DNA from: Pseudarthrobacter defluvii
GTDB lineage: Bacteria > Actinomycetota > Actinomycetes > Actinomycetales > Micrococcaceae
Length of the DNA stretch: 64,000 nucleotides
Reading direction: 5' to 3'
NCBI RefSeq assembly: GCF_030323865.1
Contig: NZ_CP066362.1
Span: forward strand, 1,550,001 to 1,614,000
Shown in pieces: positions 15,372 to 63,866 of the stretch; positions within the stretch are counted from its first letter, which is position 1, and every line of letters starts with the position of its first letter. Under the pieces are notes generated by a model. It was not told where the DNA came from. It saw nothing but the letters and a program-made list of their open reading frames with translations, and did no database searches. The position numbers were made by a program, and so were the translations under genes.

Positions 15372-18064
<2,693 letters not shown>

Positions 18065-18208
18065 ACGCCCGCTCACTTCCTGCATGTTTTGGGCCGACGC
18101 CCGCTCACTTTCCTTAGGAAAGTGAGCGGGCCTTGCTCTTTAACCTGCAGAACCTGAGCGGGCGTCGCCGGTTAAGCTGCAAAACGTGAGCGGGCGTTGG
18201 GGGTTGAG
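18065..18208. repeat. 32-bp tandem repeat array, locus A (2 minus + 3 plus units)
   Basis: The core GCCCGCTCAC occurs at 18067 and 18099. Its inverse, STGAGCGGGC, occurs at 18122, 18154 and 18186. Each step within a cluster is exactly 32 bases. Around the plus cores the sequence reads CTGCARAAC then STGAGCGGGCGTYG. The array starts at the base after the argH stop codon and runs to just before the next promoter. The same design recurs at 32094-32325. Confidence 0.8.
18099..18131. terminator. Hairpin at the inversion point of array A; argH terminator candidate
   Basis: GCCCGCTCACTTTCC (18099-18113) pairs perfectly with 18117-18131 across a three-base loop. It is formed by one minus and one plus repeat unit meeting head to head. 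CTTGCTCTTTAA follows. It probably ends the arg operon transcript. Confidence 0.6.
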
Positions 18209-19551: not shown

Positions 19552-19612
19552 GTTGCTCCATCACTTATGGTCCCTAAACCGGGGTTTTAGGAACCATAAG
19601 TGATGGAGCAAC
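19552..19612. terminator. Long near-perfect palindrome between converging genes
   Basis: Arms 19552-19580 and 19583-19612 pair over about 29 positions with one mismatch and one bulged T. The arms begin GTTGCTCCATCACTTATGG. The length greatly exceeds a usual terminator, but its position between two converging stop codons suits bidirectional termination. Confidence 0.7.
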
Positions 19613-31893: not shown

Positions 31894-32013
31894 GTTACGG
31901 CGGTCATAGCGTGGGGGAAACGCCCGGTCCCATTCCGAACCCGGAAGCTAAGACCCACAGCGCCGATGGTACTGCACCCGGGAGGGTGTGGGAGAGTAGG
32001 TCACCGCCGGAAC
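31894..32013 (+). rRNA. rrf: 5S ribosomal RNA
   Basis: 120 bases from GTTACGGCGGTCATAGCG to TCACCGCCGGAAC; the ends pair to form helix I. The central CCGAACCCGGAAGCTAAG is typical of 5S. Confidence 0.95.
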
Positions 32014-32025
32014 AACTATTAGGTC

Positions 32026-32055
32026 GAGGCCCCGAACCACACGGTTCGGGGCCTC
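32026..32055 (+). terminator. rRNA operon terminator
   Basis: GAGGCCCCGAACC (32026-32038) pairs perfectly with 32043-32055 across a four-base loop, just after 5S. No long T run follows. Confidence 0.7.
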
Positions 32056-32093: not shown

Positions 32094-32325
32094 AACCCCC
32101 GCTCACCTCTGACACCCAGGACAGGAACCCCCGCTCAGTTTTGACAGGTAAACGAGCAACCCCAGCTCACCTCTGACACCCAGGACAGGAACCCCCGCTC
32201 CGCACCGAGGACAGGCACATGGGCCGCCCCGATCCCGTGTGAGCGCGCGTTCGGGGAGGAGCTGCCAGACGTGAGCGGGCGTTGAGGGAGAGGCTGCCAG
32301 ACGTGAGCGGGCATCCCTCGTTGTG
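32094..32325. repeat. 32-bp tandem repeat array, locus B (4 minus + 3 plus units)
   Basis: Minus-oriented units begin at 32094, 32126, 32158 and 32190; their cores are CCCMGCTC at 32097, 32129, 32161 and 32193. Plus-oriented cores GTGAGCGSGC lie at 32239, 32271 and 32303. All steps within a cluster are exactly 32 bases. Units 32094 and 32158 match at 31 of 32 positions. The rest of the 490-base gap between 5S and the next gene holds only the rrn terminator and a promoter. Confidence 0.8.
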
Positions 32326-32499: not shown

Positions 32500-34431
32500 A
32501 TGGCCGAGCACAACGGTGGCAACCGCGGCAACGACCGCGGCGCGTTCCGCGGCAACAACAACTCCGGCGGTGAGCCCCGCGGCTTCAGGTCGCGGTCCGA
32601 CCGTGACGGCAACAACTTCTCCCGCGGTGGAGCTACCGGTGGCGGGGAGCGTAAGTCCTACGGTGATCGGCCGCGTCGGGATGGTGAAGGTGACCGGCGT
32701 GGTTTCGGCGGTGGTGCCGGTGATCGTGACCGTAAGCCGTTTGGTGATCGTCCCCGTCGTGATGGTGAGGGTGAGCGCCGTCAGTTTGGTGACCGTGACC
32801 GTAAGCCGTTTGGTGATCGGCCGCGTCGTGATGGCGAGGGTGACCGGCGTGGTTTCGGCGGTGGTGCCGGTGATCGTGACCGTAAGCCGTTTGGTGATCG
32901 TCCCCGTCGTGATGGTGAGGGTGAGCGCCGTCAGTTCGGTGACCGTGACCGTAAGCCGTTTGGTGACCGGCCGCGTCGCGATGGTGAAGGTGACCGGCGT
33001 GGTTTCGGCGGCGGGACCGGTGATCGCGATCGTAAGCCCTACGGTGACCGTGACCGTAAGCCGTTTGGTGACCGGCCGCGTCGCGATGGTGAAGGTGACC
33101 GGCGTGGTTTCGGCGGCGGGACCGGTGATCGCGATCGTAAGCCCTACCGTGACCGTAAGCCGTTCGGTGACCGGCCGCGTCGTGATGGTGAGGGTGAGCG
33201 CCGCGGTTTCGGCGGCGAAAACCGCAAGCCGTTTGGCGACCGGCCGGATCGTGCGCCCCGCAGCTTTGACCGCGGCGACGCCCGTGCTGAGTCCGGCCGC
33301 GGCTCCGGCCCCCGCGGCTTCGGCCGCGACCGCCAGGAAGAGCGCCCGGCACGCGTACCCAACGCTGCCGATCTTCGCAGCGCCAACCGGCCGGACCGGG
33401 AACGCTCACCCGAAATCGACGAGGACGTCACGGGCAAGGAGCTCGACCGCGCCACGCAGCACCAGATCAAGACGCTCGAGTCCAAGAGCGCGGAATGGGT
33501 GGCCCGCCACCTGGTCATGGCCGGCCGCCTGATTGACGACGAGCCCGAGCTGGCCTTCCAGCACGCCCTTGCCGCCAGCCGCCGCGGCGGAAGGCTCGCG
33601 GCCGTCCGTGAAGCCGTCGGGCTGACTGCCTACGCCGCAGGCCACTACGGCGAAGCACTGCGTGAGTTCCGCACCTTCCGGCGCATCAGCGGCTCCAACG
33701 TGCACCTGCCCGTGATGGCCGACTGCGAGCGTGGCCTGGGCCGGCCGGACCGGGCCCTTGACGTTGCCCGTTCCGAGGAAGCCCAGGATCTGGACGCCCC
33801 GGGCAAGGTTGAACTGGCCATTGTTGCCGCCGGCGCCCGCACCGACCTCGGTCAACTGGATGCCGCAGTGGCGGAACTTGAGATTCCGCAGCTGGACATC
33901 AACCGTGCGTTCTCCTACAGCCCGCGTCTCTTCCGCGCCTACGCCGACGCACTTGCCGCGGTCGGGCGCGATGAAGAGTCGCATAAGTGGAGCCGGCAGG
34001 CCGTGGTGGCGGAAAATGCCCTGGGCCAAGGTATGGATGAGGAGCCCGAGATCATCGACCTCGGCTGGGATGAGGAAGAAGAAGCCCGCCAGGAGGCTGA
34101 GCGCCGCAGGATGCTGGAGCGCGCGTCGCAGGCCGCAGGCACCGGGGCTGCTCCCGAGGCTTCGGCGACGGGCCCGGACTCCTCCACCCCGGAGAGCAGC
34201 CGCGCCTCCGAAGCGAAGGCTGTCCAGGACAGCAGCATCGACGACCAGGACGCTGACTACTTCGTCTCTGACGACGCCGAGTCTGATCAGGACTCGGTGG
34301 AACACGACGAGATTGAGCTCGACTCCGCATCCGCGGACGAGCCCGGCAACGAGGACGCCGCGGAAGACGAAGGCCCCGTGGAACACCATGACAGCGCCGA
34401 CACCTTTGCGAATGAAGAACGGCGGGACTGA
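32500..34431 (+). CDS. RGG-rich repeat protein with TPR-like C-terminal half
   Basis: A 643-residue two-part protein. Residues 1 to about 260 are disordered and built from repeats of R-K-P-F-G-D-R-P-R-R-D-G-E-G joined by D-R-R-G-F-G-G-G or E-R-R-Q-F-G-D-R, rich in Arg, Gly and Asp, like RGG RNA-binding tails. Residues about 300-540 form regular helical pairs resembling tetratricopeptide repeats. The last 90 residues are strongly acidic (D/E/S). The ATG at 32500 has AGGAGG eight bases upstream. It occupies the place of M. tuberculosis Rv1691 and leads the HAD-tlyA-nadK-recN group. RNA or ribosome binding is an inference from composition and neighbours; no function is established. Confidence 0.8.
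   Translation: MAEHNGGNRGNDRGAFRGNNNSGGEPRGFRSRSDRDGNNFSRGGATGGGERKSYGDRPRRDGEGDRRGFGGGAGDRDRKPFGDRPRRDGEGERRQFGDRDRKPFGDRPRRDGEGDRRGFGGGAGDRDRKPFGDRPRRDGEGERRQFGDRDRKPFGDRPRRDGEGDRRGFGGGTGDRDRKPYGDRDRKPFGDRPRRDGEGDRRGFGGGTGDRDRKPYRDRKPFGDRPRRDGEGERRGFGGENRKPFGDRPDRAPRSFDRGDARAESGRGSGPRGFGRDRQEERPARVPNAADLRSANRPDRERSPEIDEDVTGKELDRATQHQIKTLESKSAEWVARHLVMAGRLIDDEPELAFQHALAASRRGGRLAAVREAVGLTAYAAGHYGEALREFRTFRRISGSNVHLPVMADCERGLGRPDRALDVARSEEAQDLDAPGKVELAIVAAGARTDLGQLDAAVAELEIPQLDINRAFSYSPRLFRAYADALAAVGRDEESHKWSRQAVVAENALGQGMDEEPEIIDLGWDEEEEARQEAERRRMLERASQAAGTGAAPEASATGPDSSTPESSRASEAKAVQDSSIDDQDADYFVSDDAESDQDSVEHDEIELDSASADEPGNEDAAEDEGPVEHHDSADTFANEERRD
32650..33245 (+). repeat. In-gene tandem repeats encoding the RGG-type segment
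   Basis: Alternating units of about 81 and 69 bases, both starting CGTAAGCCGTTTGGTGA and encoding R-K-P-F-G-D. The 150-base pair of units is present twice almost unchanged from about 32720, and later units carry G-T-G-D and K-P-Y variants. CGT, GGT and GAT codons dominate, unlike flanking genes. Confidence 0.75.
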
Positions 34432-62087: not shown

Positions 62088-63866
62088 CTAGCCGAGGGCG
62101 GCGTCGAGGGTGACGAAGCCGTAACCCGCCGCCCGGAGCTGGGAAATCACCTCGGGGAGTGCAGCGGCGTCGAGCGTTGAACCGTCGTCGGGGTTCGAGC
62201 CGAGGTGCATCAGGACGATCTCCCCGGGCTGCGCGGAAGCCATGACGCGCTGGACGATGAAGCCCGGGCCGCGCGTTCCGTTCATGGTGCCTGCCCAGCC
62301 CAGGGTGTCAACGGTCCACCGAATCGCCGCGTAGCCGGCGGAGTTGGCGTCTGCGACCGTACGGGAATCGCGGGCGCCGAAGGGGAAGCGGAAGAACGGG
62401 AGCGGGTCGGCTCCAGCGGCCTCGATGGTCCTCTGCGCGCTGTTGATCTCGGCTGCGATCTGGGCGTCGGTCAGGGTGGTGAAATCCGGGTGGGTCATCG
62501 AATGGTTGCCGATCCGATGCCCCGCGTTGTAGATCAGCGCCGGGTCTGCGGGGAACTGGTTGACCCAGTCTCCGGTGAGGAAGAACGTACCAGGGACGCC
62601 GTTGGCGGCGAGGGTGGCGAGGACCGAACGGAGGGCGGCGTCGTTGGCGCCGGCGTCGAACGTAAGCGCGACAACCTTCTGTGTAGTCGGAATGCGCTCA
62701 AGGTCTACGCCCAGGAGCGCTGACGGGACGCTCGTGTAGACGACCTCGGTCCTGCCGCTGGCAGCGTGCCACAGGATCGATCCGTGCTGGAAGTCGTTGC
62801 GGCGCCCGCCCGTGATGCCGTACTCGCCGCTGACCGGGTAACCGAGCCGGCTGCGCTCCCAACCGAGGGCCGCCCACTGGGCCCGGATGGCCCCATACAC
62901 CTCGTGGGCTCCAGTGGCCGGCGACCAGTAGATCGACGAGCCGGCGTTCGTGCCGCTGAAGTGGTTGTACCTGCCGGTCCCGTCGGGGGCGCCAGTCTCG
63001 TCCGTCACTGGGAATCCGAGCAAGCCGGCCGGCCCCCCTAGCTCCAAATAGCGTCCGCGGATGGCCCCGTGCACCTCGTGGGCTCCGGTGCCGGGGCTCC
63101 AGTAGATTGTGCCGCGCTCGAAGTCGTTGTACTGGCCGCCACCGCCCGGAGTCGCGGTCTCGTCCGTCACCGGGAAGCCAAAGAACCCCGCGGGCCCGCC
63201 CAGTGCCAGATAGGTGCCGCGGATGGCCCCGTGCACCTCGTGGGCTCCGGTGCCGGGGCTCCAGTAGATTGTGCCGCGCTCGAAGTCGTTGTACTGGCCG
63301 CCACCGCCGGAAGTGGCGGCCTCGTCGGTGAGCGGGAAGCCCAGGTAGCCGCCCGGTCCGCCGAACGCCAGATAGCGTCCGCGGATGGCCCCGTGCACCT
63401 CGTGGGCTCCGGTGCCGGGGCTCCAGTAGATCGTGCCACGGGCAAAGTCGTTGTACCGGCCGGGGGCGCCCGGGGTGGCGGTCTCGTCCGTTAAGGGGAA
63501 GCCAAAGAACCCGGCCGGGCCGCCCAGCGCGAGATAGCGTCCGCGGATCGCCCCGTGCACCTCGCGCGCCCCGGTGCCGGGGCTCCAGTAGATCGTGCCG
63601 GCGGTGTAGTCCTGGGCGCGGCCTCCAGCGATGTCATACGCGCCGCCGACTGGCGTGCCGAGGAATGATGCGCTGCCCCCGAGCTGCTCATAGTGCTGGA
63701 TGATGGCGTCGTCGCCAGCCTGCAGGACCGCCATCGACGCCGGAACGCTCTGCTGCGAGGCTGCCGCCGCTGTAGCCGCGGGCGGCGCCAAGGCAGTGCC
63801 CCCGGGACCACCGCCGAGGGCGAGGGCCAAGGCTATTCCGAGGACGGCGAATCGAGACCGGCGCAT
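62088..63866 (-). CDS. Secreted LGFP-repeat polysaccharide deacetylase
   Basis: 592 residues. A signal peptide (about 1-38: R-R-S-R, a hydrophobic core, then A-T-A-A-A-A) is followed by six LGFP repeats of 52-58 residues (54-105, 106-159, 160-213, 214-267, 268-325, 326-377), each containing G-x-P-x-G-F-x-G-F-P or a variant and Y-W-S-P-x-T-G-A. A NodB domain (396-590) carries T-F-D404-A-G-A-N-D, H455-S-M-T-H459 and R-F-P-F-G-A-R-D. LGFP repeats bind cell-wall arabinogalactan-type polymers, so deacetylation of a wall or surface glycan is likely. It begins the accessory DNA after the conserved der-tRNA end. Confidence 0.88.
   Translation of the reverse strand: MRRSRFAVLGIALALALGGGPGGTALAPPAATAAAASQQSVPASMAVLQAGDDAIIQHYEQLGGSASFLGTPVGGAYDIAGGRAQDYTAGTIYWSPGTGAREVHGAIRGRYLALGGPAGFFGFPLTDETATPGAPGRYNDFARGTIYWSPGTGAHEVHGAIRGRYLAFGGPGGYLGFPLTDEAATSGGGGQYNDFERGTIYWSPGTGAHEVHGAIRGTYLALGGPAGFFGFPVTDETATPGGGGQYNDFERGTIYWSPGTGAHEVHGAIRGRYLELGGPAGLLGFPVTDETGAPDGTGRYNHFSGTNAGSSIYWSPATGAHEVYGAIRAQWAALGWERSRLGYPVSGEYGITGGRRNDFQHGSILWHAASGRTEVVYTSVPSALLGVDLERIPTTQKVVALTFDAGANDAALRSVLATLAANGVPGTFFLTGDWVNQFPADPALIYNAGHRIGNHSMTHPDFTTLTDAQIAAEINSAQRTIEAAGADPLPFFRFPFGARDSRTVADANSAGYAAIRWTVDTLGWAGTMNGTRGPGFIVQRVMASAQPGEIVLMHLGSNPDDGSTLDAAALPEVISQLRAAGYGFVTLDAALG
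63066..63551 (-). repeat. Three near-identical 162-bp repeats inside the LGFP gene
   Basis: These encode LGFP repeats 2, 3 and 4. The stretch for G-T-I-Y-W-S-P-G-T-G-A-H-E-V-H-G is nearly base-for-base identical among copies, which suggests recent duplication or gene conversion. Confidence 0.8.

Follow-up and report, generated by a model that had tools for sequence, protein, structure and literature searches.

A predicted AbiEi-Vsr nuclease bracketed by inverted 32-bp arrays as the likely source of dispersed intergenic repeats in Arthrobacter and its relatives

In a 64,000-nucleotide stretch of the Pseudarthrobacter defluvii chromosome (the window), an array of 32-bp units stands behind an rRNA operon (locus B, Table 1), as a cluster of minus-strand units followed by a cluster of plus-strand units. 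A gene for a predicted nuclease, flanked by the same inverted arrays, lies outside the window and thus beyond the view of the initial annotation of this DNA. We consider the array at locus B to be a likely non-autonomous offspring of the nuclease-bracketing repeat, spread and resized by this predicted AbiEi-Vsr nuclease. The AbiEi-like part would read the core of the repeat, the nuclease part would nick or cut beside the bound unit, and repair of the break would copy units into other intergenic sites and lengthen or shorten existing arrays. On balance, we also lean towards a broader view, in which the AbiEi-Vsr (DUF559/MTES_1575) superfamily of Arthrobacter and its family represents a second, independent answer of the kind known from repetitive extragenic palindromes (REP) and REP-associated tyrosine transposases (RAYT): each nuclease would own a private bracketing repeat that seeds inverted pairs or 32-bp arrays, different nuclease-repeat pairs would share intergenic sites, and a DnaA box would tie the nuclease to replication.

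The widest inverted gap noticed in the P. defluvii genome, between minus units at 2867868-2867996 and plus units at 2869134-2869262, encloses one 318-codon gene, which sits between those for formate-tetrahydrofolate ligase (FTHFS) and inositol-phosphate synthase. Two overlapping frames fall within this gene; otherwise, neither strand has a further open frame of 80 codons or longer between these arrays. The 318-aa product is predicted to combine an AbiEi-like part with a Vsr/I-Bth0305I-like nuclease: in the structural model, the fold of residues 3-199 is that of AbiEi, a DNA-binding antitoxin, and residues 204-307 have an I-Bth0305I/Vsr nuclease fold, the latter with conserved acidic and QYDG-H residues that are invariant and resemble an active site. 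A Pfam scan of 36 members at an E-value of 0.1 recovered DUF559 and MTES_1575 in all 36 and AbiEi_4 in nine, while the Y1 transposase family (PF01797) was absent from it. Elsewhere, homologues of the nuclease were found in three plasmid records (36-38% identity) and in one phage record (31% identity); the phage homologue (MT837503.1:4977-5960) is encoded in a sequence of 6.7 kb that comes from human faecal samples.

The association of gene and arrays extends across the genus, where 91 matched loci were gathered, comprising 87 orthologues (at least 59% identity) and four paralogues; L188 and L235, which carry internal stops, were left out of one protein set. In a motif-free lag scan of the 350-bp flanks of these 91 loci, a period of 32 was detected in 153 of the 182 flanks, every one of them among the 174 flanks of the orthologues. 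Unrelated lags reached on average about 1.5 flanks, the next-best lag (27) reached 23, and the gene bodies gave 0/182; among the 254 flanks of 127 ordinary genes of the P. defluvii genome, a single one showed the period. The orientation of the recognised units is likewise uniform, with 224 minus and no plus units upstream of the gene and 180 plus and no minus units downstream, such that all 404 point outward. At one nuclease locus (L207) a stretch of Ns interrupts the assembly at the array, some 120 bp ahead of the gene; arrays of this kind may break assemblies, and counts from drafts may accordingly run low.

Further, 84 of the 87 orthologues (L185 among them) have an exact copy of the word TTATCCACA, which we take to be a DnaA box, no more than about 80 bp ahead of the match start, and none of the 87 downstream flanks contains it. 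Of the 72 more distant paralogues (see below), 52 have it in one flank or the other; it stands upstream of one of the 127 ordinary genes, and 464 kb of the P. defluvii genome contain it at two places, including one at a paralogue. As judged from sequence, this suggests that expression of the nuclease might be tied to the replication cycle; the word could instead belong to a promoter, as part of a conserved stretch CCTGTGGATAACTTC.

The cores beside the nuclease differ by clade and include TGAGCGGG, TGAGCGCG, TGAGCGAG, TGACCGGG, TGAGAGAG, TGAGGGAG and TGATGGGG, among others. Using the fifth base of the core, 75 of the 87 loci could be classed (C, 25; A, 35; G, 11; T, 4). In 22 of the 25 C-class loci, C-type arrays outnumber A-type arrays genome-wide, and the reverse holds at 34 of the 35 A-class loci. 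In the A-class exception (G067) both cores adjoin the nuclease; the three C-class exceptions (G162, G171 and G168) contain both array types, and a further nuclease locus bearing A-type units is present in the first two. For G-type unit pairs, 11 genomes (ten of the 11 G-class genomes, all except G036, plus G133, classed by eye) gave counts of 8-106, against 0-9 in 12 other genomes. Hence, most arrays across a genome share their core with the units beside the resident nuclease. On the tree, 12 core-class changes gave three independent pairs, of which, on average, 2.5 agree with the expectation and 0 oppose it, in an underpowered comparison (p = 0.25).

A parallel arrangement is seen in the paralogues. 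Homologues were sought in 297 genomes from across the order, and the paralogues considered comprise 72 distinct loci with 26-57% identity (L363 included and L391 excluded, as L215 and L391 are the same gene), 49 of which are flanked by a left-right inverted repeat matching at 17 or more of 20 positions; a first paralogue count had omitted six broken or partial orthologues and L363, and the corrected count was likewise 49/72. The same measure gave 1/127 for ordinary genes and 34/282 for shuffled left-right pairs, a background raised by related loci. The bracketing motifs vary by subfamily and are themselves dispersed: with the motifs of 42 loci having at least 18/20 matching positions, 94 matches were obtained in 1.66 Mb of other DNA and none with the reversed motifs. 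These matches fall into 38 places, three of which repeat DNA already counted; of the 35 left, five adjoin a nuclease gene and 30 lie elsewhere, and many of the dispersed copies are in inverted pairs. The window itself contains such a pair (Table 1), and at two array-free counterparts of locus A, a second array in the window (see below), a palindrome of one paralogue motif is found (G234 and G028). A further genus of the family (G461) has two homologues with 32-bp repeats of their own and other cores, one of the four flanks being below the threshold. As separate observations, a different motif is repeated in tandem, in two copies of 32 bp, in the left flank of the 35% paralogue L363, the sole paralogue with period 32; the homologue L385 (50% identity, with an internal stop) from another genus (G441) is flanked by arrays of 21-bp period; and copies of a CGATTGCTCCGTAACTGCCG motif, some inverted, are clustered at L410:3461-3985, where no nuclease gene was found nearby.

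The variation of unit numbers in whole 32-bp steps could also be produced by slippage, in which case the arrays would be passive tandem repeats and the nuclease gene a mere bystander beside one of them. We strongly disfavour this account and deem it highly improbable, because it does not accommodate the linkage at nearly all 87 orthologues, the outward orientation of every recognised unit, the agreement of cores in trans, or the parallel bracketing of the paralogues, for which the 127 control genes have no equal.

With respect to locus B itself, the layout proposed in the initial annotation, i.e., four minus units followed by three plus units at a 32-bp period, is borne out both by the direct positions of the cores, spaced at exactly 32 bp within each arm, and by Tandem Repeats Finder (TRF), which reports a period-32 array in each half. 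The minus cores read TGAGCGGGGGTT on the minus strand, with one mismatch in the last two (32158 and 32190). The three plus cores proposed at 32239 and onward are also present, although each start has to be moved by one base, as the annotated position is the G preceding TGAG and the cores begin at 32240, 32272 and 32304. That loci A (18064-18198) and B belong to one family with one orientation rule is equally upheld. The family is dispersed, as had been supposed: a pattern of paired units, with two cores at a distance of 32 bp and up to two mismatches, has 52 matches in the P. defluvii genome and the reversed pattern has none, and the chromosome contains 14 or more array loci. The minus-then-plus rule holds in 20 two-strand arrays and plus-then-minus in none, with one mixed. 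Of 39 intergenic arrays, 18 have all their units on a single strand. As for the repeat-database search that had been called for, its Rfam part returned no catalogued RNA family at the window arrays at the gathering threshold.

Table 1. Coordinates of features in the window (positions counted from its first base)
Feature	Position	Strand	Remarks
Locus B minus arm, four 32-bp units	32094..32201	-	cores 32094-32105, 32126-32137, 32158-32169, 32190-32201; TRF
Locus B plus arm, three 32-bp units	32240..32315	+	cores 32240-32251, 32272-32283, 32304-32315; TRF
5S rRNA gene, end of rRNA operon, upstream of array B	31896..32012	+	Rfam RF00001
Terminator-like hairpin behind 5S, perfect 13-bp inverted repeat	32026..32055	+	upstream of array B, separate from it
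Locus A minus arm, two units of array family	18064..18107	-	
Locus A plus arm, three units	18123..18198	+	pairs with minus arm as strong predicted RNA hairpin
61-bp inverted pair, motif GTTGCTCYATCACTTATGG / GTTGCTCTATCACTTATGG	19552..19612	.	brackets paralogous nuclease subfamily in other genomes

Taxonomically, the array family is concentrated in the Arthrobacter group: among the matches listed, 119 of 120 stretches from named genomes belong to Arthrobacter, Pseudarthrobacter or Paenarthrobacter, and the paired pattern is present in 32 of 73 genomes of the genus (P. defluvii included) and in none of 46 genomes from other genera of the order. The remaining stretch is a Streptacidiphilus contig (L091) with a single exact paired-unit match, far beyond the Arthrobacter group. 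A phage origin of the arrays was considered and rejected, given that the exact paired pattern has no match in viral contigs and that phage records hold only the one distant homologue of the nuclease.

Comparison of orthologous sites reveals turnover in units. The locus A site was compared in 18 relatives, with an array in nine, no array in eight and one unclassed (G009). Sites with two units on each strand measure 127-128 bp in three cases and 131, 146 and 159 bp in others; three sites with five units measure 159 bp each, i.e., one unit longer than the 127-128-bp versions. At the locus B site, scanned in relatives for the core with up to two mismatches, 15 of 18 relatives were classed (all except G149, G009 and G138) and ten have at least three units with the scanned core; by eye, G001 has units of a different core type (TGATG) there. 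Four rRNA operons lie in the stretches fetched, and an array follows three of them. Behind the operon at about 3.954 Mb, the array has the same offsets from the 5S gene as locus B and 4/8 units in place of 4/3, which, together with the whole 32-bp steps at the locus A site, supports the earlier idea of a family that expands, and also contracts, by whole units. The operon at about 0.745 Mb (L402/L419) is followed by a different terminator-like hairpin and no array, and the notion that every rRNA operon has an array is thereby ruled out. A core-like match at about 0.885 Mb was entertained as part of a 23S gene and rejected, as it is not within that gene.

These sites also bear on a function suggested in the initial annotation, namely that the arrays insulate strongly expressed operons such as arg and rrn, a reading considered here together with bidirectional termination of transcription. 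Locus A is predicted to form a very stable RNA hairpin (z -6.86), the corresponding position in array-free relatives is taken, as seen by eye, by an unrelated hairpin-like sequence, and there is some preference for convergent gaps (18/39 arrays versus 79/247 gaps, by a crude gene caller). However, locus B folds little better than shuffled sequence (z -1.16, with 24 of 200 shuffles equal or better), and a separate terminator-like hairpin already stands upstream of it, a similar one being visible by eye ahead of the locus B site in those relatives shown with their 5S gene. One of the four rRNA operons and eight of the 18 locus A sites are array-free, 18/39 arrays are confined to one strand, and the linkage to the nuclease is left unexplained. 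Terminator or insulator activity as the general function is accordingly rejected, and we regard this reading as very improbable. As to the immediate surroundings, locus A has plus-strand genes on both sides, each with a Pfam match. Directly behind array B is a 643-aa open frame (window 32500-34431) that contains tandem repeats (32662-33217) and has no Pfam match, and at window 62995-63600 is a tandem repeat of 162 bp in 3.7 copies.

The chief competitor of mobilisation by the nuclease, which we hold to be unlikely, is that the AbiEi-Vsr protein has been domesticated as a regulator or nucleoid protein (a nucleoid-protein site was the other suggestion of the initial annotation), which binds the arrays as operators or architectural sites while ordinary recombination spreads them. 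Such a role would sit well with the AbiEi fold, which is that of a DNA-binding antitoxin, and with the binding of inverted repeats reported for AbiEi in the available part of PMC7319586. It would also suit the mostly intergenic position of the arrays (55 of 60 arrays of at least three units) and the exact 32-bp phasing, which amounts to about three helix turns and would present the units on one face. On the other hand, the nuclease part retains its invariant, active-site-like residues, the array sites are not conserved between related species, and there is no obvious regulatory need for the arm downstream of the gene. Divergent, promoter-rich gaps are, if anything, under-used (5/39 arrays versus 59/247 gaps), a weak point given the crude gene caller. 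These gene-context counts, based on the 39 of 55 intergenic arrays with a called gene on both sides, carry little weight, because the caller labelled locus A divergent despite its plus-strand neighbours.

Alternatively, the arrays might label the chromosome as self-marks for a defence nuclease that acts on DNA lacking or carrying the mark. PADLOC matches to AbiEi and, very weakly, to a methyl-directed nuclease (E 0.063) point in this direction, as does the covariation of cognate core and nuclease. This we find quite improbable, since the number of unit pairs ranges from 0 to 370 between genomes, which is uneven for a protective mark, and the bracketed unit in the P. defluvii genome holds no further gene of 80 codons or more.

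Several observations weigh against spread and resizing by the nuclease. Its gene rarely moves: among the 30 best nuclease loci, one flank is common to 28 and the other to 27, and it is therefore mostly inherited in place. Binding, cutting and mobilisation are activities that we infer for the protein, and no target-site duplication has been established for the arrays. Two orthologues (L235 and L241) lack period 32 at the threshold of the scan, and 12 of the 87 loci fell outside the core classes, their cores being off the motif used, with several A-like by eye. Descent explains part of the agreement between nuclease and core, which makes this match less independent. Moreover, no intact orthologue was found in the array-rich genomes G042 (a draft with 234 C-type pairs), G165, G226, G027 and G139, and broken or partial orthologues occur in G021 and G141 (in two frames) and in G121, G062 and G009 (partial), of which G021, G121, G141 and G062 are array-rich. 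The nuclease is thus not needed to keep arrays; either arrays can outlive it or draft assemblies can miss the gene.

Among the titles and abstract openings of the open-licence literature matches listed, no such nuclease-repeat system is described. RepRanger counts REP-like sequences in one Arthrobacter species (PMC12306157), the main text of which has 'nuclease' once, within 'exoribonucleases', and mentions neither transposase nor RAYT. Closer in appearance are the CGTC-tagged palindromic repeats, reportedly without a dedicated transposase and known from five phyla, actinobacteria not among them, according to the portion available of PMC3733652, where term counts give neither Arthrobacter nor DUF559. 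Many cores of the present family end in GCGTC; unlike the CGTC-tagged repeats, their end is no fixed tag, because GCGTC, GCGTT and GGGTT alternate. The same portion describes TIRtrons, in which some RAYT relatives are bracketed by private inverted repeats, with tyrosine transposases as the enzymes.

On the side of the enzyme, the predicted Vsr/I-Bth0305I fold is shared with the EDxHD/Vsr homing endonucleases; the P. defluvii gene differs in being free-standing, outside any intron or intein, with arrays around it and an AbiEi-like part ahead of the nuclease. The presumptive AbiEi-like protein likewise recalls the AbiE type IV toxin-antitoxin systems, whereas no AbiEii toxin gene adjoins the P. 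defluvii copy, whose neighbours are metabolic, and a nuclease domain is fused to it. On the side of the repeat, bacterial interspersed mosaic elements (BIMEs) and miniature inverted-repeat transposable elements (MITEs) are short, dispersed, non-coding inverted repeats between genes, as are the arrays described here, which are set apart by their link to a nuclease gene in place of a DDE or Y1 transposase, by their fixed 32-bp phasing and by their outward orientation.

The closest parallel is provided by REP/RAYT, for which the accessible parts of PMC2817692 and PMC3116915 describe an enzyme gene placed between two inverted repeat copies, an enzyme phylogeny that largely tracks that of the species, dispersed intergenic copies that are often inverted doublets, and a repeat type that matches the enzyme type. 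To that extent the likeness covers bracketing inverted repeats, a species-following enzyme, dispersed inverted copies and the match between repeat and enzyme type. The differences are that the enzyme here is an AbiEi plus Vsr/EDxHD-type nuclease and not an IS200/IS605-like Y1 enzyme (TnpAREP), that the 32-bp unit (e.g., TGCCAAAAGTGAGCGGGCGTT) is by inspection not self-complementary, only the minus/plus pair being palindromic, and that the units form 32-bp tandem arrays in the clade of the nuclease. By analogy, then, the system would resemble REP/RAYT in logic and stand outside it in its enzyme and in its unit. DUF559 is a family of unknown function, and for each protein of one of its clades the present data point to a likely cognate sequence, such that binding and cutting become directly testable; they also suggest how a large class of repeats between genes may have originated in these bacteria. 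If the proposal is right, the naturally matched nuclease-core pairs could serve for learning how such proteins read DNA, and long-lived partnerships of repeat and enzyme like REP/RAYT would have arisen more than once, from unrelated enzymes.
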